Virus record (IMG/VR): IMGVR_UViG_3300036715_002842
Span: 1 to 64,000 of that record
Source: a virus
Reading direction: 5' to 3' (one strand)
DNA length: 64,000 bases
Shown here: positions 8,501-35,730 of the stretch, one piece after another
How the letters are laid out: each line of letters starts with the position of its first letter
How positions within the stretch are numbered: the first letter of the stretch is position 1
Program-made: the position numbers and the translations under genes
Notes under the pieces: model-generated
Seen by the model: only the letters and a program-made list of their open reading frames with translations
Database searches by the model: none
Told to the model about the DNA's origin: nothing

Positions 8501-10240
8501 CTTAGGTTGAGGTCCATTCGCATATTCCCAGATCATTCGATACTGAGCATGCCATCCACGACCGGACCATGTATACCACCTTGGAGTGTGACCTTTCTGT
8601 GCCCATTCATAGAGCTTCCCATGAAGGGGATTCAAAGAATCTCCCGGAAGGAGATCTTCTACCTTACGATATCCACCTTCCTTGAGCATAATTAAATGGT
8701 CTTCTGTGGCCTTGAAACTAGAACCATCATCCAGAGTTACCCTGTAAACTGAGGCACCGGTTCTCTTCACACCAATGTTGTACATTGGAGCAATAACGGT
8801 CTTCTTAAGTTCGGAATCCCAAGTATAAACATTGACTGTAGTTCCAACCAACTCCTTGATCGGAACGGAAATTCTACCATCTGCAACAGAAATAAGGGTA
8901 TCCCCGGTAATGCAGCAAGGGTTCGAACCGTTAATCCTTCCAGAATTTAAGCAGGTGTGCCACTCATTGATCGTGGTGTCGAACTGAAGTCCAGGGTCAG
9001 CGCAGAACCAAGCCGCCTTGACGATCTTGTCCCATAGCTCCTTCGACTTGATGGTCTTGACGATGTGCCCACCAGTACGAGAAGTCAGGTTCCAATCCCC
9101 ACCAGCCTTCACGGAATCCATGAAATCATTGGTCAGGCGAACGGAGTTGTTGGAGTTCATTCCGTTGACGGTGAGGTAAGCTTCACTGTCCCAGTTGGTA
9201 TCGTAGATATCGATGTCGCGAACGGTGTCACCATTCTGAAGCCGACCAAGGCACTGGGAGATGAAAGGCTTCGCAATACCATCACGGTATGCCTGTGCGA
9301 TTGCCTTCTTCAGCTTCTCGTTGGTGTAGGGGTTGGGGTCCTTCGAAGGGCTGGCTTCGTATGCCTTGCACATGCGATCCCAGTGCTTACGCATGATCTG
9401 GGAGCCTGCAGCAAGAGCAACCACCTTGCGCTCTTCCTTGACCTTCCAATCCACGAAGGTTTCGATGTCCGGATGGTCTGCGTTCAGGATCACCATCTTC
9501 GCAGCACGGCGCGTGGTACCGCCCGACTTGATGGCGCCTGCAGCCTTGTCTCCAATCACCAGGAACGACATCAGACCGGAGCTTTTACCCCCACCGGAGA
9601 GGGTTTCATTCGCACCACGTACGTTGGAGAAGTTGGTGCCGGTACCCGAGCCGTACTTGAACAAGCGAGCTTCACGGGTCCACAGATCCATGATGCCACC
9701 ATCGTTGACCAGATCGTCCTTGATGCTCTGGATGAAGCATGCGTGAGGCTGAGGACGTTCATAGGAGGAGGTCGAAGCCTTCAACTCCTTAGAATCCGGA
9801 TCTACGTAGTAGTGACCTTGAGACGGCCCATTGATCCCGTAAGAGTTGAACAGCCCTGTATTGAACCACTGGGGGCTATTAGGAGCCGCCATCTGGTTTG
9901 CCAACATGAACTGAAGTTCTTCCTTGAAGGCATCTGCATCTTCTGCGGTATCGAAGTAGTTGTGCTTGACTCCCCAGGTCTTCCAGCAGTCGGTCAATCG
10001 TTCGAAGACTTGGCGAGAATCGTTCTCGCCCTCAGTCCCATTCTTTCCGAGACCCTTACGGCGGAAGTACTTCTGTGCCAGGATATCCGTTGCTACCTGC
10101 GACCACCTATCCGGAACGATTACATTGCTGTTCTCGAAGATCGCATTTCCATCCAACCTGTTAATCCTGGATGTTCTTTTCACGAAGTTGATTCCATCGT
10201 ACGGACCGGAATCCTTCGTAAAGTAGCGGGATATTTTCAT
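5579..10240 (-). CDS. nrdJ: Adenosylcobalamin-dependent (class II) ribonucleotide reductase with intein
   Basis: The 1553-residue precursor contains a class II NrdJ of 1119 residues split by a 434-residue intein. Recognisable parts are the [14 protein letters not shown] active-site segment with the thiyl-radical Cys, the [23 protein letters not shown] and [11 protein letters not shown] segments, and a Cys-rich tail (CVECG...[14 protein letters not shown]) typical of NrdJ. It reduces ribonucleotides to deoxyribonucleotides using B12. Start ATG 10240 is chosen over ATG 10276 because AGAGG precedes it. It makes dNTPs for phage replication and needs no oxygen or second subunit. Confidence 0.93.
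   Translation of the reverse strand: [1553 protein letters not shown]
7613..8914 (-). mobile_element. Intein with HNH homing endonuclease in nrdJ
   Basis: The 434-residue insert starts with Cys (CITGDTLI, block A), has the block B sequence TEDHLIML, and ends [19 protein letters not shown]...GIFIHN before the +1 Ser. Its middle contains [21 protein letters not shown], an HNH nuclease, plus a four-Cys zinc motif (CAVC...CSALCG) and NUMOD-like repeats. It should self-splice and home. It sits directly after the active-site Cys of the reductase (NPC/SEY), a conserved site that inteins favour. Confidence 0.92.
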
Positions 10241-10334
10241 GGAGAACCTCTTAGTTTGGATAAAACGGGTACTCAACCTATGGGGATGAGTATGACAATA
10301 AAGGGGGAACTAGAGATCTAGTTTCAAGTAAGCC

Positions 10335-10559: not shown

Positions 10560-12350
10560 TTAATTTGACGGGGAAGGTTTCAGGTGAGCAAAGACAGGAT
10601 CCTCTAAACCGTTTCTTTCGAAAGCCGTCTTCCTCATGTAGCATGGACCACAGCTCCCACAATGGTGTTCTTCGTGGGAATAGCACGACCAAGTCAGTTC
10701 CCAAGGGGTGCCACACTCATTGCCCAGCTTGACAATTTCGTGTTTCATGAGGGTACTGAGAGGATCGATCAGAGTGATCTTTACCCCATTCTGCGTGCTG
10801 TAGGGTAGGATCTTATTGAATAACCTTCCGAACTCTTGTTCGTTATCTGGGTAGCTTCCAGAATTGTGAACAAGAATACCGTTGGCAAGAACGAAATTCT
10901 CATCTCCAGGAACTGAAAGATCGTATACAACTGGCGGGGCTGGAACCGCTTCAATACTAGTAACACCGGAAAATCTAACCCCACAATCTAGGTTTTCGGG
11001 GAATGGAAGAAGTTCCGTTTTTAGAACTTCTCCAAAAATTTCTGGGTAGGGTAGGGAATTATTTGTAAGTTCATCCGTTCGAATGGATCCAATTTTAATA
11101 GTAGATTGATCTTCCTGTTTTCTAACCATGATGGAATGACAAGGGGTAAGATCTACGGTTCTTCCCAAAGTATCTGTTACACGAAGAAGATGATCATAAG
11201 TACATTTATGAACTATTACTTTTGCAACGTCAGATTCCTTACAAACTCCATCTGAATTTACTGAAATGGTTTTTACTCCGATGGTATTCTCCCACTTGGA
11301 GAGGTTTTCAATGGTTTCTACAAAGGTCCTTCCATCCTTCTTTAAAAGAAGCTTCGTATATCCTGGTAAGCTTTCTTCAAGGTTTCCTCCAAATGCGATC
11401 GTACCAATGTTATTCGTTTCGGCATAAGCTGTCAGCACCGACAGCATCAGAAGGTTACGTGCGGAGACCCAATCCATCGCATATTCAGTTCCACGAATTC
11501 CTTCTTGATGGTAGTGCCCTTCGACAATGGATCCTCCGAACACCCTCGGGAGATCCAAGAAGACCAACTTGAAGCCACCATGATCCGCAATTTTCTTAAT
11601 GCGATCAACCTCAACAGATTCGGCAACACACCCATACTGGAAGTGTGCCAGGGTCACTTCATGCCCTTTGGCCTTCAGCATGTAGGCCACGGCGGTAGAG
11701 TCCAGGCCGGAAGAAGCTGCAACCACTACTCCAGGCGCTTGAGTACGGGGAAGCTCTACTGTTTCGAACTCGAAGGTCCGAATGTTGACGCGAAGGATGG
11801 AATAGGGCTTCAGGGCTGAAGAGTATTCAGGGAGCATCTCTGGAATGGATCCAAAGGAGAAGTAGCTCTTCCAATCAGTGAAGAAGTAGATCGGCTTGTA
11901 GTTACAGGCCAGGATCAGGCTATCACCCTCGAACCAAGCCAGTGCGTAGCTACCTTCGATCTTCTGGAGGATGGCTGGGATCTCTTCGAATGGTTGATTA
12001 CGTAGCAGACCTGGAAGGACCATCGAGTCAATCGGAAAGTCCCCAAAGGTCTTATCGTTGGCGATCACTCCATTGTGGACTATCCCATCGTAGGGTTGCA
12101 GGATCTCGATTCGGGAAAGGGCCTCGGTGGTAGGTGTAGCGCGAAAGTTGCCAACCACTCGGCTGAACTTGGAGATGTTTGAAATCTCCTCGTCCGACAT
12201 CTTCTCCAGGCTACGAAATTCTTGATCTGGTTGGCTTCGATCGTAGGCTTTGAAGCCCCAACCATCCCTACCGCGAATGCTTCCATTACGCAGGATGCCA
12301 ACTTTCACTTCCTGTGGGGTCTCTCCGAACCAACCAGCAATGCCGCACAT
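10560..12350 (-). CDS. Glutamine amidotransferase-QueC fusion with mini-intein
   Basis: The precursor is 596 residues; the spliced form is 426. It begins MCGIAGWFG, a class II (Ntn) glutamine amidotransferase whose Cys2 is the nucleophile. From about residue 200 comes a QueC domain with PP-loop ASSGLDSTA and a C-terminal zinc site (CYSHEEHHCGSCGPC). QueC makes 7-cyano-7-deazaguanine. Such Gat-QueC fusions are known in phages such as 9g, whose DNA carries archaeosine-type 7-deazaguanine. AGGAGG lies just before ATG 12350. QueE is at 46130; the inserting transglycosylase is not in this window. Confidence 0.88.
   Translation of the reverse strand: MCGIAGWFGETPQEVKVGILRNGSIRGRDGWGFKAYDRSQPDQEFRSLEKMSDEEISNISKFSRVVGNFRATPTTEALSRIEILQPYDGIVHNGVIANDKTFGDFPIDSMVLPGLLRNQPFEEIPAILQKIEGSYALAWFEGDSLILACNYKPIYFFTDWKSYFSFGSIPEMLPEYSSALKPYSILRVNIRTFEFETVELPRTQAPGVVVAASSGLDSTAVAYMLKAKGHEVTLAHFQYGCVAESVEVDRIKKIADHGGFKLVFLDLPRVFGGSIVEGHYHQEGIRGTEYAMDWVSARNLLMLSVLTAYAETNNIGTIAFGGNLEESLPGYTKLLLKKDGRTFVETIENLSKWENTIGVKTISVNSDGVCKESDVAKVIVHKCTYDHLLRVTDTLGRTVDLTPCHSIMVRKQEDQSTIKIGSIRTDELTNNSLPYPEIFGEVLKTELLPFPENLDCGVRFSGVTSIEAVPAPPVVYDLSVPGDENFVLANGILVHNSGSYPDNEQEFGRLFNKILPYSTQNGVKITLIDPLSTLMKHEIVKLGNECGTPWELTWSCYSHEEHHCGSCGPCYMRKTAFERNGLEDPVFAHLKPSPSN
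10863..11372 (-). mobile_element. Mini-intein in the QueC domain
   Basis: The 170-residue insert lies between NLEE and SGSYPDNEQEF, a segment continuous in QueC proteins. It starts with Ser (SLPGYTK), which is less usual than Cys. Block B is TPCHSIMV, blocks F/G are VYDLSVPGDENFVLANGILVHN, and the +1 residue is Ser. No endonuclease domain is present. The Ser1 boundary is the best fit to extein continuity. Confidence 0.85.
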
Positions 12351-15991: not shown

Positions 15992-18900
15992 TTAATCACT
16001 AGAGGCCGTGGCAGACTTTTTACCAGAACTCGTGGCATTGACAGTGATGGTAAGATCCTGAGTAACTGTATCACCCGCGGCATTAGTAACGGTGAGTGTG
16101 TAGGTGGTATTTGAAGAAAGTGCTGGGGTGGTGAACCCTGTGGTAACTGCACCGATTCCATTATTGACAGATCCTGTACCACCACTGAACGTGGTTGTTA
16201 CTACTGCGGTAGTGCCACTGAAAACTGGGTTGGGTGTAGCGGAGAAGGCTGAGATTGTTGGCATTGCTACGACTGTTGCTGTTGTTGTTGCGGTTTTAGA
16301 ACCATCTGCGGCGGAGGTGGCGGTGATGGTGTAGGAACCGGGGGTTGCTGGAGCAGTATAAACGGTATTCACTCCAGTTGCGGTAGAGATTGGAGAGAAG
16401 GTTCCACCGGTTGCAGTCCAGTTGATGCTAGTGTTCACCGCGCCAGAAATGGTTGAACTAAATGTCTTGTTGTGGCTTACGGAAACGGTGAAGTTCTGGA
16501 GGGAGATGGCTCCCACAACTACGGTCTGAGGTGTGATAGTTAAGTTACCGCTCATGGTATAGCCGGTGATTGAAGTAATCTTGCCGTAGTAAATGGTCTG
16601 AGTCACAAACCCACTTGCTTGAACTGCGTAGGGGGTACCACTTACAGCGCTCGCAGTGATTTCAGAACCACCAACGGTTGTTCCAATACTCTTGTTACCC
16701 GTCAAGGTTCCAGTGTAGGTCATTGTAAGGGTTACATTGGTTGCACCATAAAGAGGAGACATAGTGCTTGCTACCATTGTTAATGTTGGTAGTGCGTAGA
16801 CTATTGCAGTGGTTGAATTTGTCTTTGTAGGATCTGCAACGGATGTTGCGGTGATAGTGTAAGTTCCGGGAGTCGCTGGAATATTCCAAGTTGCTCCAGT
16901 GAAGGAACCGCCGGTTGCGGACCAGGTTACCGCGGTATTAGCAGCACCCGTCACGTTCGCGAGGTAGATCTGGGTTTGACTTACGTTTACGTTCGCGGTG
17001 GCAGGACTGGGAACTCCTACCGCTACGGTCTGAGGAGTAACCGTTACGGAGTAATCCGCTGTTGTACCTGCTAGGTTGGAGACTCTCAGGTAATAGGTCT
17101 TGGCAACTGTGAAGCCAGAAGCCTGTACAGTGATGGGAGTTCCGGAAGTTGCTGCAGCGGAGATATCAGATCCGCCCAGAGTAGTCCCAACAATCGCGGA
17201 GGAGCCGGTCCAGGTCGGTGTTACGGTTGTGGTCGTTGCCCCATAGAGGGGAGAAGTAGTGCTCGCAGCAATCGAACCTGTGGGGTTTGCAACTGTGGTA
17301 ACAGTCGTTGTATTGGTGGAAGTTCCATTCGCTGCGGCGGTTGCCGTCAAGGTGTAGGTTCCAATACTTGCGGGGGCGGTCCAAGAAGTTGCCACCCCAC
17401 TTGCGGTAGAGATTGGAGAGAAGGTTCCACCGGTTGCAGTCCAGTTGATGTTAGTGTTCACCGCACCCGAAACCGTGGTGCTTACGTTTCTCGAAGTGCT
17501 TACGGTCTGGTATCCACCACCACCGGTGATTGCAGCCACAGATACCGTTTGAGGTGTGATGGTTACAGATGCATCGGCAGTTGTTCCGGGAACGTTAGTT
17601 CCTCTTGCGTAGTAGGTGGTAGCCGCGGTGAACCCGCCAGCTTGAACTGCCAGGGCAACTCCAGAAGTAGCCGAAGCAGAGATCTGGGTACCTCCGACAG
17701 ATGTACCTACGGTGATTGAGGTAGTTCCACCACTACCGGTTGGCGTTACGGTTACGTTCGTTGCCCCATAAAGAGGTGAAGTAGTACTTGCGGCGAGGGA
17801 GATTCCTGGGAGTGCGTAAACATTGACGGTTGTGGAATTGGTGGTAGAACCATCTGCAGCAGAAGTGGCAGTGATGGTGTAGGAACCGGGGGTTGCTGGA
17901 GCTGTCCACGTAGTTGTCGCACCGCTTGCGGTAGAGGTTGGAGAGAAGGATCCACCGGTTGCTGACCAGTTGATGTTGGTGTTTACTGCGCCGGTTACCG
18001 TTGCACTATAAGCCTGGGTCTGGCTCACGTTCACATTCGCTGCGGCTGGAGATGGAATGCTGACGGACGGCCACTGGGGATTTGTTGTGACGCTGCTTGC
18101 GAGGTAGGTAGCTCCAACGGAGTTTGTTACTATAAGGATGTACGTCCCCTGATTAACGAATCCAGTGGGCTGTACTGGTAAGGCAACCCCAGAAGTAGCG
18201 TTCGAGGAGATTTCGGAACCAGTTCCATTGAGAACTCCGACCGTTGCAGTTGCTCCAGCAGTGAAAGTTGGGGTAACCGTTACGTCAGTCGCACCATAGA
18301 GAGGGTTGTTGGTGCTCATTGTGAGCGAACCAGTTGGTAGAGCGACCAAGGTAATGGTTGAGGTTGCAGACTTGGTTCCATCTGCAACGCAGGTCGCTGT
18401 CGCAGTCTTGGCACCAGCGGTAAGTCCACCATAGTAGAAATACCCATCCGAACGGTAGGTTCCTGCCGACTGGGAGAAGGAAACCGATGTGTTTGCTGCA
18501 CCACTTACGGTTGGGGTAATCAGAATGTCGCACTTGAGGAATTGCGTTGCTGAGGTGTTCACCTGCAGTTGGACATGATCAAAATCTAGTTCGAGATTCA
18601 GTCCACTGTAGCAGTTATTCACTGACATGAACCACTGAAGAACCTTAGCGGTGGTGCACATCCACTTGACACTATAACGTTGCCACACGGTAGCGCTAAG
18701 AGGTGGATTCTCCAACCACACGATATTTTCTGGTGCCTGATTCCATGCATCAAAGAATCCTGCACCAGTTGCAGAAAGTCTGCCGCGTGCGTAGAAGCTC
18801 AGGGTATACCAGGTACTGAGTGCGTAAGCACCAATCCAGAAGGCATTTCCATCTGCGGCGGATAGTCCGAAAGTATTGATGGTTGTGTTGTGAGTGAATC

Positions 18901-20926
18901 TTACAAAAGGTCCACCATCCACACCGCCAGTTGCTTGGTAAGATGAAGTCGCTCCACCACCATTGTCGTAGATGGAGTAGTAGGTCATCCCGTTATCAAA
19001 AGATCCATCGCACATCAGATTGACTGAGACTGATCTCGATGCGGACGTTGGACTTACTGCTACTGAAACTGTCTGAGGAGTAATGGTTACACTGGAATCC
19101 GCTGCTGCAAAGGCATGATTGTAGGTTCTTGCCCAGTAAGTTGTTGCTGCAGTAAATCCGCCAGTCTGAACTCCAATCGGAGTACCAGAAGTAGCCGTCG
19201 AAGAAACCTGGGATCCACCTTGATTGGTACCAACGTAGATGAGATAGGGATCTCCTCCACCAGTTGGGGTAACAGTTACATTCGTTGCCCCATAAAGAGG
19301 TGAAGTAGTACTTGCGGAGATGGAGGAGGTAGGTACCGCGTAGACATAAACCGAGGTCGAAGCGGACTTTGTTGGATCTGTTACCGATGTAGCTGTAATG
19401 GTATAGGTTGCTTGACCCGAGCCGAAGGTTGGCGCAGTCCAATTAGCACCGGCAAAGGATCCACCACTGCAAGACCAGGTAACTGCGGAACTAACCCCTC
19501 CAGAAGCTGAAGCAGAAAATGCTACGACTTCTCCGCAGGTTCGATTTGTATTTGAAGGGGTTGGGGTACTCACTGAAACTGTTTGTGGGGTAATCGTTAC
19601 GCTAGCATCTGCTACGGTACTAGCGGCATTGAACACTCGTGTCCAGTAGGTCTGGGCAGTAGTAAATCCGCCTGTCTGTACTCCAACTGCCGCATTGTTG
19701 GTAGCGTTCGTCGAAATCTGCACTCCACCCTGCGTTGTGCCGAGGTAGATGCCATAAACACTTCCACCACCCGTTGGAGTAATGGTTACGTTCGTCGCAC
19801 CATAGAGTGGATTTGTGGTGCTCGCAGCAAGAGAAGCTGTTGGTGCGGCAATTACTGTTGTATATGAATCGTTCGTTACTCCATTCGCTGCGGCGGTAGC
19901 ACGAACGTAGTAGGATCCAGTAGTTCCTGGGGCGGTGAAAGTTGTCGAATCGCCGGATGCAGGGGATACGGATCCACCTGCTGGGGCAGACCAGTTGATT
20001 GTGGTGTTCACCGCACCGGATACACTAGCAGTTACTCCAGCCGAAGTACCCACAGTCATGTATGTTGGAAGAGCAACGGAATAGGTAATTGAAGGTGTTT
20101 GAGGTGTAATTGTTACGCTAGCGTCTGCAACTCCGCCACCGTAGGAGGAGTATCTATTCCAATAGGTAGTTGAGGTTACGAACCCTCCTGTTTGAACTCC
20201 GATAGCGGATGAGTAAGGAGACGCGGAACTGAAAATATTTCCGGAACCCTGGGAGGTTCCAACCTGGGTTGCTGCAATTGAACCGGTGCCACCAGGGGTT
20301 ACCGTTACGTTCGTCGCACCATAAAGAGGTGAGGTGGTGCTTGCAGTAATAGTTGCAGTCGGAATCGCAGTTACGGAAAGATTCACGTTACTTGAAGCTC
20401 CGGTCCCCGAAGCGGTTGTGGCATAAATGACGACTGTTTGTGGAGATGTTGGAGGGGTGTAAGTAGTCGTACCTCCGCTCGCAGTTGTAGATGGGGAGAA
20501 GGATCCGCCGGAAGCGCAGGACCAATTGATATTTGAATTTGATGCACCAGATACGGTTGCTGAGAAGGTACAAGTTCTATTAGTATCGCAATAGTTGCTA
20601 CTAGGAGTAATTGCTGAAACTGCTGGGGTTTGTACTGTTACAGTTTGGGAACCAGAACCAGTTCCACCTGAAGTTGTAACACTCATTACACCAGATGTAT
20701 TCTGAGCTACGGTTCCAGTGATAGTGATGGTTGTATCGTTCGTTACTGTAAATGCAATAGAAGTGGTTCCAATCTTAACTACGGTTGCGCCAGTGAATCC
20801 GCTACCCGTAACAGTCCAACCAGTCTGACCATAGAGAGGTGAAGTTGTCGATACACTGGAGACAACCGGTACTCCAGAGTAGGTTCCTAGGATGTAGGTC
20901 TCGTATACATTAAGAGTTGCGGTCAT
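15992..20926 (-). CDS. Giant Ig-like repeat virion protein, 1644 aa
   Basis: About nine units of ~150 residues repeat the marks NPLYGATNVTVTP, VQxGGFTxxTTYxxR, SVTITPQT and NINWSATGGSFSP, typical of tandem bacterial Ig-like domains. The first unit resembles an IPT/TIG fold. Between units, around 18530-19020, sits a ~170-residue non-repeat domain (NLMCDGSFDNGM...) with jelly-roll carbohydrate-binding character. It is probably a surface adhesin or decoration fibre. It lies 11 nt after the small Cys-tailed gene in one operon. Confidence 0.8.
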   Translation of the reverse strand: MTATLNVYETYILGTYSGVPVVSSVSTTSPLYGQTGWTVTGSGFTGATVVKIGTTSIAFTVTNDTTITITGTVAQNTSGVMSVTTSGGTGSGSQTVTVQTPAVSAITPSSNYCDTNRTCTFSATVSGASNSNINWSCASGGSFSPSTTASGGTTTYTPPTSPQTVVIYATTASGTGASSNVNLSVTAIPTATITASTTSPLYGATNVTVTPGGTGSIAATQVGTSQGSGNIFSSASPYSSAIGVQTGGFVTSTTYWNRYSSYGGGVADASVTITPQTPSITYSVALPTYMTVGTSAGVTASVSGAVNTTINWSAPAGGSVSPASGDSTTFTAPGTTGSYYVRATAAANGVTNDSYTTVIAAPTASLAASTTNPLYGATNVTITPTGGGSVYGIYLGTTQGGVQISTNATNNAAVGVQTGGFTTAQTYWTRVFNAASTVADASVTITPQTVSVSTPTPSNTNRTCGEVVAFSASASGGVSSAVTWSCSGGSFAGANWTAPTFGSGQATYTITATSVTDPTKSASTSVYVYAVPTSSISASTTSPLYGATNVTVTPTGGGDPYLIYVGTNQGGSQVSSTATSGTPIGVQTGGFTAATTYWARTYNHAFAAADSSVTITPQTVSVAVSPTSASRSVSVNLMCDGSFDNGMTYYSIYDNGGGATSSYQATGGVDGGPFVRFTHNTTINTFGLSAADGNAFWIGAYALSTWYTLSFYARGRLSATGAGFFDAWNQAPENIVWLENPPLSATVWQRYSVKWMCTTAKVLQWFMSVNNCYSGLNLELDFDHVQLQVNTSATQFLKCDILITPTVSGAANTSVSFSQSAGTYRSDGYFYYGGLTAGAKTATATCVADGTKSATSTITLVALPTGSLTMSTNNPLYGATDVTVTPTFTAGATATVGVLNGTGSEISSNATSGVALPVQPTGFVNQGTYILIVTNSVGATYLASSVTTNPQWPSVSIPSPAAANVNVSQTQAYSATVTGAVNTNINWSATGGSFSPTSTASGATTTWTAPATPGSYTITATSAADGSTTNSTTVNVYALPGISLAASTTSPLYGATNVTVTPTGSGGTTSITVGTSVGGTQISASATSGVALAVQAGGFTAATTYYARGTNVPGTTADASVTITPQTVSVAAITGGGGYQTVSTSRNVSTTVSGAVNTNINWTATGGTFSPISTASGVATSWTAPASIGTYTLTATAAANGTSTNTTTVTTVANPTGSIAASTTSPLYGATTTTVTPTWTGSSAIVGTTLGGSDISAAATSGTPITVQASGFTVAKTYYLRVSNLAGTTADYSVTVTPQTVAVGVPSPATANVNVSQTQIYLANVTGAANTAVTWSATGGSFTGATWNIPATPGTYTITATSVADPTKTNSTTAIVYALPTLTMVASTMSPLYGATNVTLTMTYTGTLTGNKSIGTTVGGSEITASAVSGTPYAVQASGFVTQTIYYGKITSITGYTMSGNLTITPQTVVVGAISLQNFTVSVSHNKTFSSTISGAVNTSINWTATGGTFSPISTATGVNTVYTAPATPGSYTITATSAADGSKTATTTATVVAMPTISAFSATPNPVFSGTTAVVTTTFSGGTGSVNNGIGAVTTGFTTPALSSNTTYTLTVTNAAGDTVTQDLTITVNATSSGKKSATASSD

Positions 20927-20937: not shown

Positions 20938-21408
20938 TCATCCAAGGTTGATGCAGCAAGCGTCCCCACGGGCACATCCACCGGTATAGTTCGATGCACC
21001 GTACACGGCAAATCTTACCTTTACGTAGGTTAAATTCTGGGCAGCAGATAGAGTGTAAGTAGGAACTGGGGTGATTCTTGTAGTGGTGTGTGCAGTATAG
21101 TCAGAGAACATATTAGTCCAAGTTACGTTTGTTGAATCCACGCTCACATCAATGTTAATATACGCGTTGTCATAGGTACCATCAACCAAAGTAGTACTTA
21201 TATCCGTATACAGAACCAAAGCGGTATAGGTTTGAGTTGCTGCCGCCCAAGCCTGAAGTGTGTAATATCCAACAGTTGGCGCTTGAAGGGTAGAAGCCAA
21301 TTTCTGCATTGTTGCCGCATCAGCACTATTTCCGTTGTAAGCAAATGTTGGATTTGTGATACCGGTAACGCTAGCCCAGGCAGTTGGATATAGATTAATT
21401 GTTGACAT
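20938..21408 (-). CDS. Small virion-type protein with Cys-rich C-terminus, 156 aa
   Basis: The product is Thr/Ala/Tyr-rich and beta-structured, like phage adhesin domains, and ends GGCARGDACCINLG, with three of its cysteines in the last 14 residues. Family not recognised. Its ATG directly abuts the stop of the radical SAM gene (TAAATG), with GAGGTC as SD inside that gene. The abutment and the odd tail make it a candidate substrate of the radical SAM enzyme, which is inference. Confidence 0.7.
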   Translation of the reverse strand: MSTINLYPTAWASVTGITNPTFAYNGNSADAATMQKLASTLQAPTVGYYTLQAWAAATQTYTALVLYTDISTTLVDGTYDNAYINIDVSVDSTNVTWTNMFSDYTAHTTTRITPVPTYTLSAAQNLTYVKVRFAVYGASNYTGGCARGDACCINLG

Positions 21409-22779
21409 TTAAGACCTCACTTCAACTGGGCCATGTGAAAGCTTCCGGTATGTTTCAACCATCTGTTCTTTCCGAACTTCAATCGCTGACAGAAGGGAAT
21501 CCCTCTTCAGCCCACAGTAGAAATCCCTTGTTTTGATTGAACCATTTTCCACGTAACAACCACCCTGACAATTGTATTTAGCAACGCAGGTCTGACATTC
21601 CGTATAGCAGGCAGTTTCAAGATTGAGAACATTCCAGATCTTCTCCATATCCAATTCAAATTCTTTGGTTTCTGGATCGAACTGGCCAACGATTAAATTA
21701 TCGGTGTAAGTTCCATTTTCCGTTGAGATTCTGTGGCACGTTGTAATGAGCCCATTGTTCAAGAAGGTCATGGAAGAACTTGGATCAGTCGCACCACATC
21801 CAGAAAATCTTGTTTTGAAAACTGAGGTATGATCTAAGTCGGTGTCAGATACAACTGCCCACTTCTTCCCAACCGATCGTTCCTTTAGTCTCTTCCAAGC
21901 TTCAACATAGACATCCACATCGTGCATCCCCTGAGGATCTGTATCGGAGTGATATGCCGCCATGTTGAGAACTAAACGAGAATTTGGATGCCTGGGAGTT
22001 TTCTGAGCCTCGATCCATCCATCGAATCCTTCTTGTTCCTGAAGCCAGTCTAGAAAGTCAGCAACGGATTCAAGTTCGGAAACCATGGGAACCGTGAGAG
22101 TTCCACGTAGATTGAAGAAGATCTTATGTTTCAGTAGGAGCAAGATTCCATTCACCGCAGCATTGAATGTTCCGGAACCATCCAATCTCTGGCGTTGACT
22201 ATTTTGAAGGATGGGGCTTCCATCAAAAGATGCCACGATCTGGTTGAAGTACTTCGCAATCTGCTCTATGTTTCCTTCATTGATCAGGGTTAGGTTGGTG
22301 GTCATTGCCATCGAACCAACTCTACCGGTTGCGAAGAGTTTTTCACTGAAAGCGAAAAGGCGGTTCCCGATGGTGAGGGTCTCCCCTTGAGGAATGAAGT
22401 TGATGTGAAGTTCTTCTTCACCCTCATCCTCAACCACAAGATCAGCTTTACGAATCACGTTCAGAATCGCCTCTTCCATGTCCTCGGAAAGGACAGGTTC
22501 ATCCGGTCTCGTATGAGCATCTGCAGCGTAGCAGTAAGTGCAAGCCAAGTTGCACTTTGAGGTCATTGAGATCTTAAATGATTTGATTTTTCTCAGATTG
22601 AAAGCGAGATCTGTTTCTGGTTTTGGGTTGGGCTGGAATTTGAAAGTCGGCGCTTCATTTGCCGGTACAAGGCACTTGAAGAAGGGATAGAAAACGTAAT
22701 CACCGTCAGATAACGTAATCGGGTAACCCGGATTCGGGTTTACACTTGTCGTTACCTCTTCCGTGGTCCAGTTAGGCAT
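21409..22779 (-). CDS. Radical SAM enzyme with SPASM domain
   Basis: The 456-residue enzyme has the radical SAM CxxxCxxC motif at Cys76, Cys80 and Cys83 (SKCNLACTYCY). Its C-terminal SPASM region has cysteines near 391, 395, 398, 404, 408 and 422 for further FeS clusters. SPASM enzymes modify peptides or proteins, for example in sulfatase maturation or RiPP synthesis. ATG 22779 is chosen over the longer frame because GGGGAG precedes it and it overlaps the YkgJ stop. It lies inside the tail-fibre operon, so a fibre or adhesin is the likely target. Confidence 0.88.
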   Translation of the reverse strand: MPNWTTEEVTTSVNPNPGYPITLSDGDYVFYPFFKCLVPANEAPTFKFQPNPKPETDLAFNLRKIKSFKISMTSKCNLACTYCYAADAHTRPDEPVLSEDMEEAILNVIRKADLVVEDEGEEELHINFIPQGETLTIGNRLFAFSEKLFATGRVGSMAMTTNLTLINEGNIEQIAKYFNQIVASFDGSPILQNSQRQRLDGSGTFNAAVNGILLLLKHKIFFNLRGTLTVPMVSELESVADFLDWLQEQEGFDGWIEAQKTPRHPNSRLVLNMAAYHSDTDPQGMHDVDVYVEAWKRLKERSVGKKWAVVSDTDLDHTSVFKTRFSGCGATDPSSSMTFLNNGLITTCHRISTENGTYTDNLIVGQFDPETKEFELDMEKIWNVLNLETACYTECQTCVAKYNCQGGCYVENGSIKTRDFYCGLKRDSLLSAIEVRKEQMVETYRKLSHGPVEVRS

Positions 22780-23128
22780 GAGGCTCCCCAAGTGGAATGC
22801 CACTCGCAATCGCCTCAGCTCTGAACTGCTCTTTTGAAATATCGGCGGGCAAAAGTGCCTTGAGAATGCACATCCTACATTCTTTTGTACCGCGAGCAAA
22901 ATCTCTGCAGGTTTGAGGACGTATATCGTAAACCTTGCAGTTTCCGTTTTCATCCAAGGCCAGACAAGATCCATTTTCATTCGCACCCATCGCATTTCCG
23001 AAAGGGGTGCTCACTAAATATTCATCTGGAATTTCCGAGGTACGATCAACATAGATGGTGTTGTTGATTGAATGGCAGCACTCGCCACACCCTTCACAAG
23101 AAGTTGGGACAATTATTTCTGTAGCCAT
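22772..23128 (-). CDS. YkgJ-family Cys-cluster protein
   Basis: The 118 residues contain CEGCGECCHS, then GSCLALDENGNCKVYDIRPQTCRDFARG and a further CRMC. This is the YkgJ pattern, with cysteines proposed to bind zinc or an iron-sulfur cluster. GAGGG lies just before ATG 23128. The stop overlaps the radical SAM start by 8 nt, so the two are made together. An electron-transfer, cluster-supply or substrate-handling partner for the radical SAM enzyme is likely but unproven. Confidence 0.85.
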   Translation of the reverse strand: MATEIIVPTSCEGCGECCHSINNTIYVDRTSEIPDEYLVSTPFGNAMGANENGSCLALDENGNCKVYDIRPQTCRDFARGTKECRMCILKALLPADISKEQFRAEAIASGIPLGEPHA

Positions 23129-26428: not shown

Positions 26429-29400
26429 TTAGATTGTGATTGCGGTTACTGCTACCTTGAAGACTGAAGAGTTGGCGGAAGTTGGTGTCACCAGAAGCTT
26501 CATGTTGGTTCCATCTGCCACCACGGAGAAGGCACCTACCTGACCGCCGATCTGGACGGATCCGAACTCGGTGTAGTCTGCTGAGGTGCTTCCATTGTGA
26601 ACTGCAAGAATCTTCGTGGTCTGGTACTTGCCACCGGTTGCATCCACCGCCTGGATCTGGAATTCTGCAGATCTGAATGTTGCCTGTGGAATGCTTGCGA
26701 TCTGCTGACCGGCGGTTGTAGCCGTGGAGGTCAGGGTATAGGTATCGATGTTGGCGAAGTCCACGTTCAAGGTGGTCAGGGTACCAACAGAGGTGATGGC
26801 TGGCTGAGCTGCTGTAGTGACGGTTCCAGCGGTTGTTGCTGTGGAAGCATTACCACTCAGGACACCAGTGAAGGTGGTAGCTGTTACACTTGTCAGACCG
26901 GCAAGAGTGGTAGTTGTAGCACCCAAGGCAACCGCGGTAGAACCAATCGTCACCGAGGAGTTAGATAGTGCACCGTTTGGAATGCTGGTGAAGTTGGTAC
27001 CGGTCAGAGTGGGGGCGGTTCCTGGAGCAACATAATCTGCTGCTGTTGCGGCAGAGATGGCAGTTCCATTACCCTTGAGCAGACCCGAGATCGAAGTGGA
27101 GAGGGTAATGACTGGCGAGGAGGTTGCAGAGGCTACCGAACCTGCAAAGCCGTTCGCAGTTGCCACGGACAGGGTAGTGACGGTTCCGGGTGCTGCTGTA
27201 ACCTGTGCCTGCAGTTTACCGAAAGCAGTCAGAATCGAATCTGTTGCTGCTACCGCTGTTGCAGTTCCCAAGGTGTAGTTTGTTAGAACCTTACCAGTGA
27301 CTGTTGTAGCGGCCAGGGTTGTGGCGTTCCCGACCGAGGTAACATCTCCAGTCAGGTTGGCGTTGGTCACTACAGTTGTAGCGTTTCCAACTGAGGTCAC
27401 CATGCCAGTCAGGTTGGCGTTAGTCGTAACTGTTGCGGCATTGCCATCGATGCTGGTGATACCAGTAAGAGCAATCGAACCAGAAACCCGATTGATTGCA
27501 ATCTGCGTGGTACCTAGATAGAAGGTTTGACCTACCGCGGCCTTCGCAGCAAGATCCGTCACGAGGTTCGAAACACCAGATTCTGGAATGCCGGTGAAGT
27601 TGGTACCGGTCAGAGTAGGTGCTGTGGAGTAGGATGGGGTTGCGCCACCTACAAGGACCCCGGATCCAGTTGCCAGCATGGTTGTGGCACCAGAACCAGT
27701 CTGGTAAGGAATGGATCCTGCAGCGCCACCAGTGATGTTGGTTGCAGTTGTAGCCGTTGTTGCATTGCCAGTCAGGGCACCCACGAAGGTGGTGGAGGTT
27801 ACACTTGTCAGACCTGCAAGGGTGGTAGAAGTTGCACCCAAAGCAATCGCGGTGGAACCCACGGTCACAGAGGAGTTGGTCAGTGCCCCATTGGGAATGT
27901 TCGTTAAGCTAGCGCCGGAACCGCTGAAGGCCAAAGCTACCAGTGTGCCAGTTGCAGGGTAGAAGTACAATCTCGAAGCCGATACTTTAGGAGCAAGGTT
28001 ACCAGTAGAACCATCCACCATAACAAGGCTGAAGGCTGTTGCCGTGGTCGTATCGTTCGTAACACCCACGTTCGTAGCGTTTGTGGCACTCGCAGCGGAT
28101 CCGGTGATGCTGATTCCCCAGTTACCGGATGCACCAGTACCGGTTGTTGTGGGCGCTCCGATGTCACTAGGAACGTAGGCCAAGAGGGTCTTGATCTGGG
28201 CAACGGTCAGATCCGCTGCGTTAGCAGTCAGACCAGTGTTATTACCCTTGAGAGTATTTGCTGCCATCTGAGCGGACATGGCATTCGTGACCACGTTCGT
28301 TGAGGTAGTGTAGACTCCATTGGTGACCGTTGCTGCGTTACCCGTTGTGCTCTGGTTCAGGATCGGGAAGTCAGCTGCGACTGCAATTGTAAGAGCGCCA
28401 GTCGTGGTAGTGCTCTTTAGGATACCAGTTCCCAGGGCCGAGGTGCCTGCGGAGTAGTCAACCCCAGCAGTTGCGGCAACCAAGGCAGAACCACTACCCT
28501 TGAGCATTCCAGAGATGGAAGTTGTAAGGGTAATCGCTGGAGTGGTACCCGCGTTGGCAACGGAGCCGCCGAACCCATTCGCGGAAACAACGGATAGGGT
28601 GGTGACAGTTCCATTCGTTGTGGAATATGTTGTGGTATCCAATGCCCAGGTATCTGCCGCGGTTTTCTTCAGGAAGCCGGAGGTTCCTGCGAGGTTCGCG
28701 ATGGCGGTGAGGTCTCCATCCAGTGCCTGGTAGCTACCACTTACCTGTTTGTTGTTCAGCTGGGCTTGAACGTTCTGGAACGCAGTGAGTACTGAATCCG
28801 TTGCTGCGATGGGGGTATTAGCACCTGCTACCAATCCGGTAAGAGTTGCTCCACGCACGCTGGTGTTGAAGTCTGTCCAAGCCTTCAAGCCATTCCAGTA
28901 CTGAGCAGAAGTGCCACCGGTAATCGTAGGCTCCTTCGCAGTCAGGTCAGAAACCATTGCGAAGGTGCCACTTGCATCCGGGAGGGTGAACTGTCTTGCG
29001 GCGGTTGCGGTAGAGATTACTTCAGAGCTGAAGGCGGTTGCGCTGGGCGTCAGGAGGATGGTGCCGAGCTTCCCTGGAGCAAGGAAACTCCAGGAAGACC
29101 GGGTATTCCCGATCTTGGCGTACCCAGTGATGGATCCACCCTCTTCGATCTCAATACCAGCAGAGTCCCCCGAAGCTGCCGCACCACCTTTGTTGAGCGT
29201 GATGAGCTTATCGGTCACGGTCATATTTGTTACGTTGTTGTAAACCAGGGTACCGGAGATGTTAACTGTGTCGCCAGCGCCACCAATATTAATGGTGGTG
29301 ACTCCTGCTCCGGTTCCAATGTTCACTGTCTGCGTGGTTGCTGCCGTACCGAGATTTACGATCGAGGCCCAGTTGGTGCCTAGATCTAGGGTTCCAGTGT

Positions 29401-31453
29401 TTACGTAAGCGTCCAGGGCGCCAGTGTGAACGATACCAGAGAAATAAGGGCTATCTGTAGGCGCCTTCGCATTGAAAGTCGTCCAATCTGCTGAGAGAAG
29501 GTAACCGGCAACAAGTTCTGTTGCCGCGGGCATCGAAATGACTGGGGTATTGCCACCTGTCGATTGTACTGGGGATGTAGCTGTGACGGATGTAACTGTG
29601 CCACCGGAGTTTGGTGGGGTTGCGAACGTACCATCTGCGCGGAGGAAGTCTGTGGTGTTGGAAACAACCCCAGGTACCAAGCCCTTTGAAGTTCCAAAGA
29701 CCGGCAACAGTGCTGCAACCTGAGCGGCAGAAAGTGCTTCAACGTTCCCAGTTCCCGCAGTAGTTCTTGCGAGGAAGGTTCCAGATGCTATCTGTGCGAG
29801 GTTGCTGAGAATAACTTTGTTGGTTCCGATGGTTGTTGCATTACCGACCGAGGTAACATCCCCGGTCAGATTGGCGTTGGTCACCACCGTCGTAGCGTTT
29901 CCAACCGAGGTAACATCCCCGGTCAGATTGGCGTTGGTCACCACCGTCGTAGCGTTTCCAACCGAGGTCACCATGCCAGTCAGGTTTGCGTTGGTCACTA
30001 CGGTTGCTGCGAACGTACCAGTTCCAGAACCGGTAACTCCACCTGTCAGCGTGATGGTCTGATCACCAGTGTTCGTTCCAGATACGGATCCACTTGCAGG
30101 AACTGTCAGCGTTGCAGAAGCAGTACCACCACCGATGGAGAAGCCATTCGCGAGGGAATTGAAAGCCAGTCCATTGATTGAAGCAGCTATTGCATTGCCC
30201 AGGTTTGGTGTAACAAGTACCGGAGAATTAAGATTCGCCTTCAGATTTAGTGCTGTCTGGGTGGCAGTTGAAATTGGCTTGTTCAGGTCCGAGGTGTCAT
30301 CCACATTCCCCAGACCCACGCTAGCAGCAGTAATCGTTGGAGTGCTGATAACTCCACTTGCATCGATTGAAATGTTTGTTCCCTGCTTTACCCCACCCAG
30401 AACTGTTGCAGAAGCAACTGGCAGGGTATAGTTATTTGCACCCGCTGCGATACCATCCAGCTTCGCAGCGTAGGTGGAAGTCATATAGCCATTGACCGAA
30501 GCGGTTGCCGCGGCCATGGAAATGACTGGAGCCGAACCGCCGCTTGAATCTACCGGCGCGGTTGCTGTCACACCAGTTACGTAGACCGTTGTGTCTAAGG
30601 ACCATGTATCGACGGCAGTCTTTTTCAAAAGACCGGAAGTACCTGCTAGAGCTGCAATCGAAGTGAGATCCGCATCTAGCGGTTGTGCGTCCGTGATTCC
30701 GTAACCGGACAGGGAAGTTGGATTGGTTCCTGCTGTTACTCTTCCCTTTGTATCAACAGTTACGGACTTGTAGGTTCCGGCGGTTACTACGTTTGGAAGC
30801 GAGAGAGTGATTGCAGTTGTACCTGATCCAGTAACGTCTCCTGTTACAGTGATAGTCTGATTACCTGTGATGTAGCCACTGGGGTTGGTGCTATTGTAAG
30901 GAGTGAAGCCCAGTGCGTTAGTGACATCAGTTGACAGAAGGGTCACAGCACCGGAACGGGTATTGAAGGAATCTACTTTGGAACCTACGATCGATGCTGC
31001 TGGGGTATTGACCCACGCCAGACCAGTCCACTGAAGCACATCTGTATTGCCCTTAGTACCCACATTCACATTCGAAAGGTTCTCAAGGATGTGGGTGTGG
31101 GTGAGTGCCGCTGCGTCTGTGATTCCATACCCTGCGAGTGTAGTGGGATTGGTTCCACCGGTTACCCGACCTTTACTATCCACAGTTACAGACTTATACG
31201 TACCAGCGGTTACCCCAGATGCTGAAAGGGTAAGAGCCACGCTGGAGGATCCAGAACCCGTAACATCCCCAGTGTAGGTGAGAACTGGAATCCCACCGAT
31301 AACAGCGACGGCACTTCCAGATCCATTCTTGTAATAAAGGTCCCCACCAGGTCCAAAGGAAAAGAGAGACTCATTTGGATAGCTGGACAGATCTGGAAAT
31401 TTAGGGCCGAGTTGGAGGTACTTGGGTCCACGTAGTGGGGCAACGAGTTTCAT
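26429..31453 (-). CDS. Very long tail-fibre-type repeat protein, 1674 aa
   Basis: The start MKLVAPLRGPKYLQLGPKFPDL could be the attachment end. Beyond it come many fibre repeats: GYGITDA, LTGDVTSVGNATTVVT (19-residue units), SSVTVGSTAIALGATTTTLAGLTSVTS, and LKKTAADTWALDTT. The C-terminus (QIQAVDATGGKYQTTKILAVHNG...) resembles a trimeric fibre tip. It is the first gene of the fibre operon, and its SD lies in a hairpin (31454-31495). Confidence 0.85.
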   Translation of the reverse strand: MKLVAPLRGPKYLQLGPKFPDLSSYPNESLFSFGPGGDLYYKNGSGSAVAVIGGIPVLTYTGDVTGSGSSSVALTLSASGVTAGTYKSVTVDSKGRVTGGTNPTTLAGYGITDAAALTHTHILENLSNVNVGTKGNTDVLQWTGLAWVNTPAASIVGSKVDSFNTRSGAVTLLSTDVTNALGFTPYNSTNPSGYITGNQTITVTGDVTGSGTTAITLSLPNVVTAGTYKSVTVDTKGRVTAGTNPTSLSGYGITDAQPLDADLTSIAALAGTSGLLKKTAVDTWSLDTTVYVTGVTATAPVDSSGGSAPVISMAAATASVNGYMTSTYAAKLDGIAAGANNYTLPVASATVLGGVKQGTNISIDASGVISTPTITAASVGLGNVDDTSDLNKPISTATQTALNLKANLNSPVLVTPNLGNAIAASINGLAFNSLANGFSIGGGTASATLTVPASGSVSGTNTGDQTITLTGGVTGSGTGTFAATVVTNANLTGMVTSVGNATTVVTNANLTGDVTSVGNATTVVTNANLTGDVTSVGNATTIGTNKVILSNLAQIASGTFLARTTAGTGNVEALSAAQVAALLPVFGTSKGLVPGVVSNTTDFLRADGTFATPPNSGGTVTSVTATSPVQSTGGNTPVISMPAATELVAGYLLSADWTTFNAKAPTDSPYFSGIVHTGALDAYVNTGTLDLGTNWASIVNLGTAATTQTVNIGTGAGVTTINIGGAGDTVNISGTLVYNNVTNMTVTDKLITLNKGGAAASGDSAGIEIEEGGSITGYAKIGNTRSSWSFLAPGKLGTILLTPSATAFSSEVISTATAARQFTLPDASGTFAMVSDLTAKEPTITGGTSAQYWNGLKAWTDFNTSVRGATLTGLVAGANTPIAATDSVLTAFQNVQAQLNNKQVSGSYQALDGDLTAIANLAGTSGFLKKTAADTWALDTTTYSTTNGTVTTLSVVSANGFGGSVANAGTTPAITLTTSISGMLKGSGSALVAATAGVDYSAGTSALGTGILKSTTTTGALTIAVAADFPILNQSTTGNAATVTNGVYTTSTNVVTNAMSAQMAANTLKGNNTGLTANAADLTVAQIKTLLAYVPSDIGAPTTTGTGASGNWGISITGSAASATNATNVGVTNDTTTATAFSLVMVDGSTGNLAPKVSASRLYFYPATGTLVALAFSGSGASLTNIPNGALTNSSVTVGSTAIALGATSTTLAGLTSVTSTTFVGALTGNATTATTATNITGGAAGSIPYQTGSGATTMLATGSGVLVGGATPSYSTAPTLTGTNFTGIPESGVSNLVTDLAAKAAVGQTFYLGTTQIAINRVSGSIALTGITSIDGNAATVTTNANLTGMVTSVGNATTVVTNANLTGDVTSVGNATTLAATTVTGKVLTNYTLGTATAVAATDSILTAFGKLQAQVTAAPGTVTTLSVATANGFAGSVASATSSPVITLSTSISGLLKGNGTAISAATAADYVAPGTAPTLTGTNFTSIPNGALSNSSVTIGSTAVALGATTTTLAGLTSVTATTFTGVLSGNASTATTAGTVTTAAQPAITSVGTLTTLNVDFANIDTYTLTSTATTAGQQIASIPQATFRSAEFQIQAVDATGGKYQTTKILAVHNGSTSADYTEFGSVQIGGQVGAFSVVADGTNMKLLVTPTSANSSVFKVAVTAITI
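29851..29996 (-). repeat. 57-bp tandem repeat inside the fibre gene
   Basis: AGGTAACATCCCCGGTCAGA recurs at 29851 and 29908, with a diverged third copy at 29965. The 57-bp period equals 19 residues (NANLTGDVTSVGNATTVVT). A related pair occurs at about 27310-27430. It is coding, not a CRISPR. Confidence 0.85.
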
Positions 31454-32051: not shown

Positions 32052-32126
32052 TGGTGCCCCCGGTGGGGTTCGAACCCACGACCTGAAGATTATGAGCCAT
32101 CTGCTCTGCCGCTGAGCTACAGGGGT
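32052..32126 (-). tRNA. tRNA-Met(CAT)
   Basis: Full cloverleaf with CCA encoded and loop CTCATAA. Pairs 2-7/66-71 are good, while 1-72 is A-C, unpaired as in initiators. The three G-C pairs of initiator anticodon stems are absent and 29-41 is T-T, so elongator Met, initiator or Ile2 (lysidine) are all possible. Confidence 0.85.
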
Positions 32127-32168
32127 ATTGGTATATTGGTTTGACTTGAGGAAAGATGGATTTCGGAA

Positions 32169-32252
32169 TGGTACCCCTTCTCGGACTCGAACCGAGACGC
32201 TCGAAAGCATAGGACCTAAACCTATTGACTGGACCAATTCGTCTAAAGGGGC
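32169..32252 (-). tRNA. tRNA-Leu(TAG)
   Basis: Acceptor GCCCCTT/AAGGGGT, perfect anticodon stem ATAGG/CCTAT, loop TTTAGGT, long class II variable arm, CCA encoded. Confidence 0.92.
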
Positions 32253-32355
32253 ATTTGATCTTCTGTCCTTACTATTGTGGAACCCGCAACCGGGTTTGAA
32301 CCTTACCACACGCGGATATCAGTTCCGCCACGCTCGCATTGGTTGATGAATTAGG

Positions 32356-32460
32356 CGGATTCACCACTGGTCGGTTTTCCCTCCCCATTAAGACCAGTGC
32401 GCACCAGCCTTAACTACGGTCGACCTTTACGGTTCTCTGGGGCTAAGCCACTTGAATCCG
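32356..32460 (-). ncRNA. Structured 105-nt RNA of unknown function in the tRNA array
   Basis: An 8-bp closing stem CGGATTCA/TGAATCCG (32453-32460 with 32356-32363) encloses a perfect 8-bp hairpin CACTGGTC/GACCAGTG (32392-32399 with 32365-32372) and smaller helices GGC-TTA-GCC and ACC-GTAAA-GGT. It is not a tRNA. It shares GTGCGCACYGGTC with the RNA region near 33220. The array transcript and tRNA processing would release it. Confidence 0.5.
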
Positions 32461-32515
32461 ATAGGTGGTACCCGTTCTCGGAAATGACTTAACGATACGA
32501 AGAGCCGTCAAGAAT

Positions 32516-32591
32516 TGGAGCCCACAACCGGGTTCGAACCGATGACCTCCTGATTACAAAGCAGGTGCTCTACCAACTGAGCTATGCAGGC
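32516..32591 (-). tRNA. tRNA-Thr(TGT)
   Basis: Acceptor GCCTGCA/TGTGGGC, loop TTTGTAA, T arm ATCGG-TTCGAAC-CCGGT, CCA encoded. Pair 31-39 is C-T. Confidence 0.9.
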
Positions 32592-32610
32592 AAAGGTGTC
32601 GGACTGAAAC

Positions 32611-33048
32611 TTGAAGGGCCATCCGACTGCCACTCAAAGGTGGGTGCATATATCGCTAGGCCGAAGGTATTTTGGATGCGGTAGATCTAAGAGATCCGAA
32701 GTCCTTGACAGTTTTGGAAAGAAGGTTCTTCTTGACTCGACTTACGAATTGGAGGTTTCGGAACTTTTGAATCAGCTTGGAATTCGTTGGATTAGACCCA
32801 AACCATTGAGTTGGTATTTGGAGGGCAAGCAGCACCTATACCACCCAGATTTCTTTTTAACGGATTTCAATCTCTATCTGGATCCGAAGAACGACTATCT
32901 AGCTCGAATTGATGTAGGGAAAATTTCCCTAGTAAGTTGGCAGAACGCAGTTGTAATTCGAATTCTAACCAAGAAGCAAATTACACTTGAGTATCTGAAA
33001 GGATTGGTAGCCCCGGAGAATTTTGAAATCTCGACCTACCGCGTGTAA
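32611..33048 (+). CDS. Homing endonuclease-like protein (PD-(D/E)XK type), possibly truncated
   Basis: The 145 residues include YFGCGRSKRSEVLDSFGKKV, STYELEVSELLNQLGI and YHPDFFLTDFNLYLDPKNDY, a pattern of phage free-standing nucleases with a restriction-endonuclease-like core (D...DPKNxY). Only a TTG start is available (32611), so the N-terminus may be lost. It lies on the opposite strand to the tRNAs, and its last 44 nt are antisense to tRNA-Val. That placement is typical of a homing gene inserted beside a tRNA. Confidence 0.6.
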   Translation: MKGHPTATQRWVHISLGRRYFGCGRSKRSEVLDSFGKKVLLDSTYELEVSELLNQLGIRWIRPKPLSWYLEGKQHLYHPDFFLTDFNLYLDPKNDYLARIDVGKISLVSWQNAVVIRILTKKQITLEYLKGLVAPENFEISTYRV

Positions 33049-33079
33049 GGCGATTGCTCTACCTCTGAGCTACAGGGCT
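33005..33079 (-). tRNA. tRNA-Val(TAC)
   Basis: Acceptor AGCCCTG/CGGGGCT, stem ATCGC/GCGGT, loop CTTACAC, CCA encoded. The 53-61 pair is T-T instead of G-C. Its 3' half overlaps the antisense endonuclease gene. Confidence 0.88.
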
Positions 33080-33235
33080 AAGGTCGGGGATTCTTCAGCG
33101 GCGCCACCTAGGAGATCCCCTACAATTGCCGCCTGCTGGGGACTAGCATTGCTGCCCCACCCTCACCACCAGGTCTACCGAGTTAGGGCCTGATCCTGGA
33201 TTAAGATCCGGCCCCCTTGACCGGTGCGCACAACT

Positions 33236-33379
33236 GATCTTGTTCGGGGAACTGGAGTCCCGGCCGGATGACAACTCCAACTCCCCTTCAACCACCGCCC
33301 TCGAGGGGTAACAGTGAACCGAAGTCCACAGTGGTCGATCTAGTTCGGGGACCCACCACCCGCGTGGTTGCAGGTCCCC
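33236..33379 (-). ncRNA. Two hairpin modules with a shared CGAAC(A/T)AGATC tail
   Basis: 33080-33472 has no clear gene. On the minus strand it holds hairpin 1, GGGGACC/GGTCCCC with an inner ACCAC/GTGGT stem (33347-33379), and hairpin 2, a 13-bp stem GGGGAGTTGGAGT/ACTCCAGTTCCCC with two G-U pairs (33246-33286). Each is followed directly by CGAAC(T or A)AGATC. The repeated layout suggests duplicated structured RNAs. Function unknown. Confidence 0.45.
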
Positions 33380-33472
33380 TTCGGACGCCTGACGGCCAGT
33401 CCGATCTTTAAGATATTCGGGAGTTCACGCCTCACTCCCTAGCGTCCAAGACTTTGCGGCGAAGTGACAATC

Positions 33473-33652
33473 CTAAGATCGTCTCCGAAGTTGCAGAGCA
33501 TCTTCGTGTAGCGCGTGGATCCTTTTGTAACTTTGACAGTTTCCAACAACCTTTAGAGGGAAGTCTTTCACTATCCTGGAGATTGCGGGAGTAGGTGCTG
33601 TGTCGGGCACCACGACCTTCAGAAGCAAGAAGAGGCTTGAATGACCGTCCAA
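33473..33652 (-). CDS. Possible 59-aa protein between RNA genes
   Basis: TTG 33652 follows GGTGGAGAG. The sequence (MDGHSSLFLLLKVVVPDTAPTPAISRIV...) looks alternately beta and alpha, and it ends in a basic LQLRRRS. There is no ATG and no family match, so it may be a chance frame. It fills the gap between the hairpin modules and tRNA-Ala. Confidence 0.25.
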   Translation of the reverse strand: MDGHSSLFLLLKVVVPDTAPTPAISRIVKDFPLKVVGNCQSYKRIHALHEDALQLRRRS

Positions 33653-33735
33653 GTATCTCTCCACCCTCACACGCGGTAGGCGTGGGGCTCGTCCTTCTGT
33701 TCCAGACCGGTTTCTGGCTGTGTACCGGTAAATGC

Positions 33736-33810
33736 TGGTGGACCTGGAGGGAATTGAACCCCCGACATCTGCCTTGCAAAGGCAGCGTTCTCCCGCTGAA
33801 CTACAGGCCC
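33736..33810 (-). tRNA. tRNA-Ala(TGC)
   Basis: Acceptor GGGCCTG/CAGGTCC with the G3-U70 Ala identity pair, perfect stem CTGCC/GGCAG, loop TTTGCAA, CCA encoded. Confidence 0.94.
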
Positions 33811-33846
33811 GTGCTGTCAAACAACTTAATCTTTAACCTACTTTGT

Positions 33847-33921
33847 TGGTACTCCCAGTTGGAATCGAACCAACGTCTAGAGCTTAGAAGGCTCTTGCTA
33901 AATCCCCTCAGCTATGGGAGC
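33847..33921 (-). tRNA. tRNA-Arg(TCT)
   Basis: Acceptor GCTCCCA/TGGGAGT, perfect stem AGAGC/GCTCT, loop CTTCTAA, T arm GTTGG-TTCGATT-CCAAC, CCA encoded. Confidence 0.94.
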
Positions 33922-33924
33922 GAA

Positions 33925-34007
33925 TGGAGGCCCGGTGGAGAGTCGAACTCCTAACCTTTCGGACGAGGGTTGCAATCTCGCGCCAGTCCACACCAGCTTC
34001 CCGAGCC
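33925..34007 (-). tRNA. tRNA-Cys(GCA) with enlarged variable arm
   Basis: Acceptor GGCTCGG/CCGGGCC, loop TTGCAAC, discriminator U73 as in Cys tRNAs, CCA encoded. The variable region is about 11 nt with a CC-GAAA-GG mini-hairpin, unusual for a class I tRNA. The D arm is irregular and 31-39 is A-C. Confidence 0.75.
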
Positions 34008-34025
34008 TAGGTCTTGCATCTTGAA

Positions 34026-34297: not shown

Positions 34298-34305
34298 TTA
34301 AGGAT

Positions 34306-35678: not shown

Positions 35679-35730
35679 CCTTTCCAGCTAGTGCACTAGC
35701 GTCAACAAGCCCGGATGTGGGTCTAGAACT

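Follow-up and report, generated by a model that had tools for sequence, protein, structure and literature searches.

A dedicated radical SAM/SPASM enzyme, encoded in a row of phage fibre-like genes, probably modifies the cysteine-bearing tail of the small fibre-region protein encoded beside it, before or during virion assembly. We hold this reading, which is built from comparison of sequences, with moderate confidence. The genes lie in a window of 64,000 nucleotides, comprising positions 1 to 64,000 of the IMG/VR virus record IMGVR_UViG_3300036715_002842 (105,575 bases). The features concerned are as follows, with L221 and L225 denoting the two contigs of the closest relative.

26429..31453, minus strand: 1674-aa fibre-like protein, first in the row; matches phrog_5181, with similar segments in L221
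23160..26399, minus strand: 1079-aa fibre-like protein upstream of the block; residues 969-1079, its C-terminus, are 39% identical to the L225 counterpart
22772..23128, minus strand: P0003, 118-aa YkgJ-type PF03692 (CxxCxxCC) protein by Pfam; accessory, not kept in relatives
21409..22779, minus strand: P0001, 456-aa radical SAM/SPASM enzyme by Pfam, conserved cluster cysteines, and CteB/anSME profile and fold
20938..21408, minus strand: P0002, 156-aa Cys-tailed protein and proposed substrate, with a homologue in L225; its gene adjoins the enzyme gene as TAAATG
20941..20976, minus strand: Cys tail of P0002, CARGDACCINLG, residues 145-156, the proposed modification site; holds all three cysteines
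15992..20926, minus strand: 1644-aa Ig-like fibre protein downstream of P0002; weak Ig-like match, with a homologue in the same place in L221

Along the minus strand the six genes follow one another in the order 1674-aa, 1079-aa, YkgJ, P0001, P0002 and 1644-aa, with spacings of approximately 29, 31, -8, 0 and 11 bases. The original prediction described three tightly coupled genes encoding a YkgJ Cys-cluster protein, a SPASM radical SAM enzyme and a 156-aa Cys-tailed protein, and this description survives re-examination: the 8-nt YkgJ/enzyme overlap, the TAAATG junction and the coordinates are correct, Pfam cut-offs are passed, and the motifs were found again. Purine-rich ribosome sites precede the starts in the block, whose G+C content of 45–46% is slightly below that of the adjacent fibre genes (51–54%). 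The open reading frame list also contains a longer, 528-aa form of P0001 starting at 22995; the start at 22779 is preferred because of its GGGGAG ribosome site and the 8-nt overlap. Giant fibre genes had been proposed on both sides. Large genes are indeed present there, and we infer their fibre identity from composition and synteny with the relative; phrog_5181 is itself a family of unknown function. The 1644-aa and 1079-aa proteins contain 10 and 2 cysteines, respectively.

Elsewhere in the window are a fused glutamine amidotransferase/QueC-like gene (10560-12350, minus strand) and a QueE-like gene (46130-46897, plus strand), from which the phage probably makes 7-deazaguanine-modified DNA. 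The minus strand also carries 12 tRNA genes in an array, together with a tmRNA (tag AENDRFLQAA), at 32052-36872, a separate CTA-anticodon tRNA at 51639-51711 (tRNA-Pyl by ARAGORN, possibly an amber suppressor), and, at 5579-10276, a 1565-aa ribonucleotide reductase large subunit interrupted by an HNH-type insertion that is probably an intein.

P0001 passes the Pfam Radical_SAM cut-off (30.5 bits against 29.5). Its CxxxCxxC motif is formed by C76, C80 and C83, and ten cluster cysteines align in a 36-sequence alignment, across which the SPASM cysteines C328, C348, C395, C398, C404, C408 and C422 are kept; by sequence, P0001 has the full seven-Cys SPASM set for two predicted auxiliary clusters. 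The best NCBIfam matches are peptide/protein maturases of the PapB (top), quinohemoprotein and SCIFF types. All fall far under their cut-offs (94 of 340 bits for the PapB equivalog, 66 of 425 for SCIFF), as does the anSME equivalog (56 of 349), and P0001 is therefore a member of none of these named maturase families. Among solved structures, the nearest to the P0001 profile is CteB (5wgg, E 9.5e-88), followed by anSME, and the AlphaFold model (mean pLDDT 76, pTM 0.79) finds its best fold matches in CteB, ChlB and anSME. This CteB/anSME-like fold and its clusters suggest that P0001 resembles SPASM enzymes acting on peptides or proteins, in several cases at cysteine. A PQGE[T/S]L motif is shared by P0001 and its closest relative, where most others have GGEP.

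P0002 contains only three cysteines, at positions 145, 151 and 152 of 156; under random placement, the chance of all three falling in the last 12 residues is 4e-4. Searches of Pfam, PHROGs and sequenced phages gave no match to the protein, and a search of sequenced phages with its homologue P0004 likewise returned none. A single-sequence structure prediction of P0002 was discarded (pLDDT 35). The proteins downstream of P0002 and of its homologue start VYETYILG and VYDAWIEG. P0002 might be a domain that has lost its last strand to the start of the next gene, but fused queries gave no match and this is a guess; a frameshift fusing P0002 with the 1644-aa gene is unlikely, because a TGA lies in that frame directly before the ATG.

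As single-sequence queries against viral contigs, P0001, P0002 and P0003 returned nothing close, and standard searches with the enzyme recovered only distant enzymes of approximately 20–28% identity. A DNA scan for sequence encoding the SKCNLxCxYCY motif identified L221 and L225, whose enzyme is 39% identical to P0001. There the order runs from DUF2793 fibre-like proteins, the last of which before the L225 enzyme is the C-terminal counterpart of the window's 1079-aa protein, through the enzyme, a 154-aa P0002 homologue and a TIG-domain protein to a 1428-aa Ig-like protein, the homologue of the 1644-aa protein in the window. The 154-aa L225 protein is 26% identical to P0002 (BLAST E 5e-10), and its gene overlaps the enzyme gene by 11 bases. 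It contains exactly three cysteines (134, 142 and 147 of 154), and these are confined to the tail. The spacing differs, C-x5-C-C in P0002 against C-x7-C-x4-C in L225, but the last Cys-Ile still aligns. The pairing of enzyme and Cys-tailed protein within the fibre operon is thus conserved in the nearest relative. A search among close relatives for an enzyme lacking such a substrate and set in another context, which would have spoken against the proposal, found none. A PAS-GGDEF gene lies at one end of L221, and these two contigs may not be wholly viral.

The block as first described fares less well in this comparison: the order of fibre, enzyme, Cys-tailed and Ig-like fibre genes is kept in L221/L225, but the YkgJ gene is missing. 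Indeed, PF03692 was unmatched in L221, L225, L179 and 57 further phage records that carry such enzymes, 60 in all, so the three genes do not form a conserved unit. The absence of PF03692 from relatives indicates that the conserved unit is the enzyme with its Cys-tailed protein, YkgJ being an addition in the window phage that is predicted to be dispensable to the pairing. P0003 itself passes the Pfam cut-off (46.4 bits against 23), but it is a small, single-domain form with no NCBIfam match. FliB contains the same Pfam domain, and together with the eight-base overlap this could suggest that YkgJ is the working enzyme, in the manner of a FliB-like flagellin lysine methylase, or an essential partner in a three-gene unit. 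Given the 60 records and the missing NCBIfam match, we judge such a role most improbable.

More distant enzymes likewise adjoin a Cys-cluster protein or peptide. In L179, a 221-kb contig, the enzyme lies between tail-fibre and Kelch proteins, directly preceded by a 206-aa fibre-region protein (L179:8265-8885) with a five-Cys cluster and then a weakly matched Hint/intein-like domain ending HN. This suggests that Hint autoprocessing could leave an exposed Cys end. The CAxxxxCC likeness between P0002 and the L179 protein is weak, because the last L179 cysteine may be the Hint nucleophile. In L180 the enzyme lies in a tail module, and a peptide of 56 aa, Cys-rich at its end, starts 5 bases after it. 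The P0001, L225, L179 and L180 enzymes form one clade (FastTree support 0.99); a quick tree without L225 agrees (SH-aLRT 96). In all four, the enzyme adjoins a protein with a Cys cluster in its tail, in or beside tail genes.

To place these loci among phage enzymes at large, we took 45 viral loci picked by the enzyme alone and scored open reading frames as Cys-rich if they had at least nine cysteines in 60 residues. Such frames made up 38/360 of those within 2.5 kb of the enzyme against 1/276 of those more than 4 kb away (Fisher p 4e-9, a guide only, because the loci partly share ancestry and the frames are not independent). A Cys-rich protein lay within 2.5 kb in 29 of the 45 loci, leaving 16 without one by this strict test. 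A loose three-Cys-cluster test gave no enrichment near enzymes and is not used as evidence. With three cysteines, P0002 has far fewer than these typical neighbours. Their forms include CSGSC-like repeats (L042, L052, L114, L115, L132), CTCNCNY-like repeats at loci where several radical SAM genes follow one another (L012, L030, L050, L053, L214), a CDCVxRTA form (L048), and SCSKGCDHRGG motifs repeated within a tape-measure protein (L197:6474-9017) whose gene immediately precedes a radical SAM gene. A blind CxxxC-repeat scan returned 16 loci with a frame above the Cys threshold. Sorted by eye, five of these look truly Cys-rich (L097, L111, L114, L115, L132) and all five records carry the enzyme, while most of the others resemble tandem repeats or antisense frames. 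These data support an association of phage enzymes of the P0001 family with Cys-rich proteins, several of which are encoded next to tail genes. Small proteins beside radical SAM genes at L210:8304-9023 and L184:7469-8203 have Cys-poor ends rich in His, Tyr, Ser and Asn, possibly another type of substrate. Three INPHARED matches labelled 'Bacteriophage sp.' (L003, L004 and L005; MT835472, MT836133 and MT838200) were rejected as phage relatives, since they resemble pieces of Clostridia chromosomes with a SCIFF maturase-like gene.

In the mechanism we propose, the phage would make P0001, encoded immediately before P0002, and the enzyme would act on the P0002 Cys tail prior to or during assembly. 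By analogy with CteB and PapB, the product may be a thioether from a tail cysteine to a nearby residue; this is the first choice because CteB is the nearest solved relative and the wider class is Cys-rich. With only three cysteines, a single link or a different radical product is possible. A thioether-linked tail could make the end of the protein rigid and resistant to proteases, or could make reactive contact with the host, with P0002 presumably part of the virion and possibly a receptor-binding protein. YkgJ may be an optional helper in metal or Fe-S handling or in substrate presentation.

Several other readings of the locus were weighed against this one. It is unlikely, though still to be taken seriously, that the enzyme targets another residue or protein, such as the 1644-aa Ig-like or the 1079-aa fibre, with the P0002 tail serving in disulphide formation, metal binding or assembly. 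The flanking fibres are likewise kept in the relative and hold cysteines, and SPASM enzymes also form C-C links and other Cys-free products; however, every cysteine of P0002 and its L225 homologue is restricted to the tail, and Cys clusters recur beside this clade's enzymes even as their other neighbours differ. Formylglycine formation on a tail cysteine would fit the profile comparison, in which anSME ranks second, and the fold comparison, in which it is one of the best matches. The tail, as originally predicted, lacks the sulfatase CxPxR motif (its core reads CARGDACC), and neither C-x-P-x-R nor C-x-A-x-R sites occur in P0002; the anSME equivalog score is far too low, no sulfatase adjoins, and anSME chemistry leaves the long Cys repeats of other phages unexplained, all of which makes this route very improbable.

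We also consider it improbable that the enzyme has an auxiliary metabolic role, helping the host or acting on a small molecule, and that its position among fibre genes is incidental. Campylobacter phage CP220 carries radical SAM genes that were interpreted in this manner (PMC2853527), and such genes in Campylobacter phages were called highly unusual and tied to host metabolism (PMC2853527; also PMC3322345). Against it stand the gene's place, kept in the relative, between homologous fibre genes and next to a homologous Cys-tailed protein, the association with Cys-rich proteins, and NCBIfam best matches that are mostly peptide/protein maturases. The CP220 locus is not a fibre operon, and phrog_1802, a family of phage radical SAM proteins matched by 10/10 sampled phage enzymes, has no function label. 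CP220 encodes a 125-aa protein near its radical SAM enzyme with its three cysteines in the C-terminal tail, and modification of Cys-tailed proteins is a candidate role for the phage genes earlier called unusual metabolic genes (PMC2853527).

Similar pairings in many viruses suggest that the tail proteins of some viruses are chemically modified by the viruses themselves. We advance more tentatively the broader view that many unrelated tailed phages use their own SPASM enzymes to cross-link, by thioethers or otherwise, Cys-rich tail, fibre and tape-measure parts in a RiPP-type mode of virion building, of which the window would be a low-Cys form. The recurring pair makes radical chemistry on virion proteins directly testable, both for the residues linked and for the need for such links in binding or survival. 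Also brought into view is a large, unexplored group of SPASM enzymes, for which long, repetitive Cys stretches may serve as substrates. Searches of open-access papers yielded no account of phage SPASM enzymes maturing virion proteins, and we know of no described radical chemistry on virion proteins by a phage-encoded enzyme.

Among known systems, anSME resembles P0001 in fold and clusters and modifies a protein at cysteine, but P0002 has no CxPxR-type site and no sulfatase lies beside the enzyme. P0003 belongs by Pfam score to the PF03692 YkgJ family, which was matched beside none of the other phage enzymes searched. The CteB/SCIFF and PapB-type ranthipeptide maturases have the fold, the CxxxCxxC motif, the SPASM Cys set and a Cys-bearing neighbour in common with P0001. 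P0001 differs from them in its low identity (approximately 20–25%), its score of 94 bits against 340, and its PQGE[T/S] in place of GGEP. Their substrates are short leader-core peptides, whereas P0001 lies in a phage fibre operon beside a structural-type protein of 156 aa. This neighbour has only three cysteines, all in a tail conserved in L225, and would be a borderline counterpart of the Cys-rich PapB and SCIFF precursors. The pair is thus a probable new form of SPASM peptide/protein maturation, acting on probable virion proteins.
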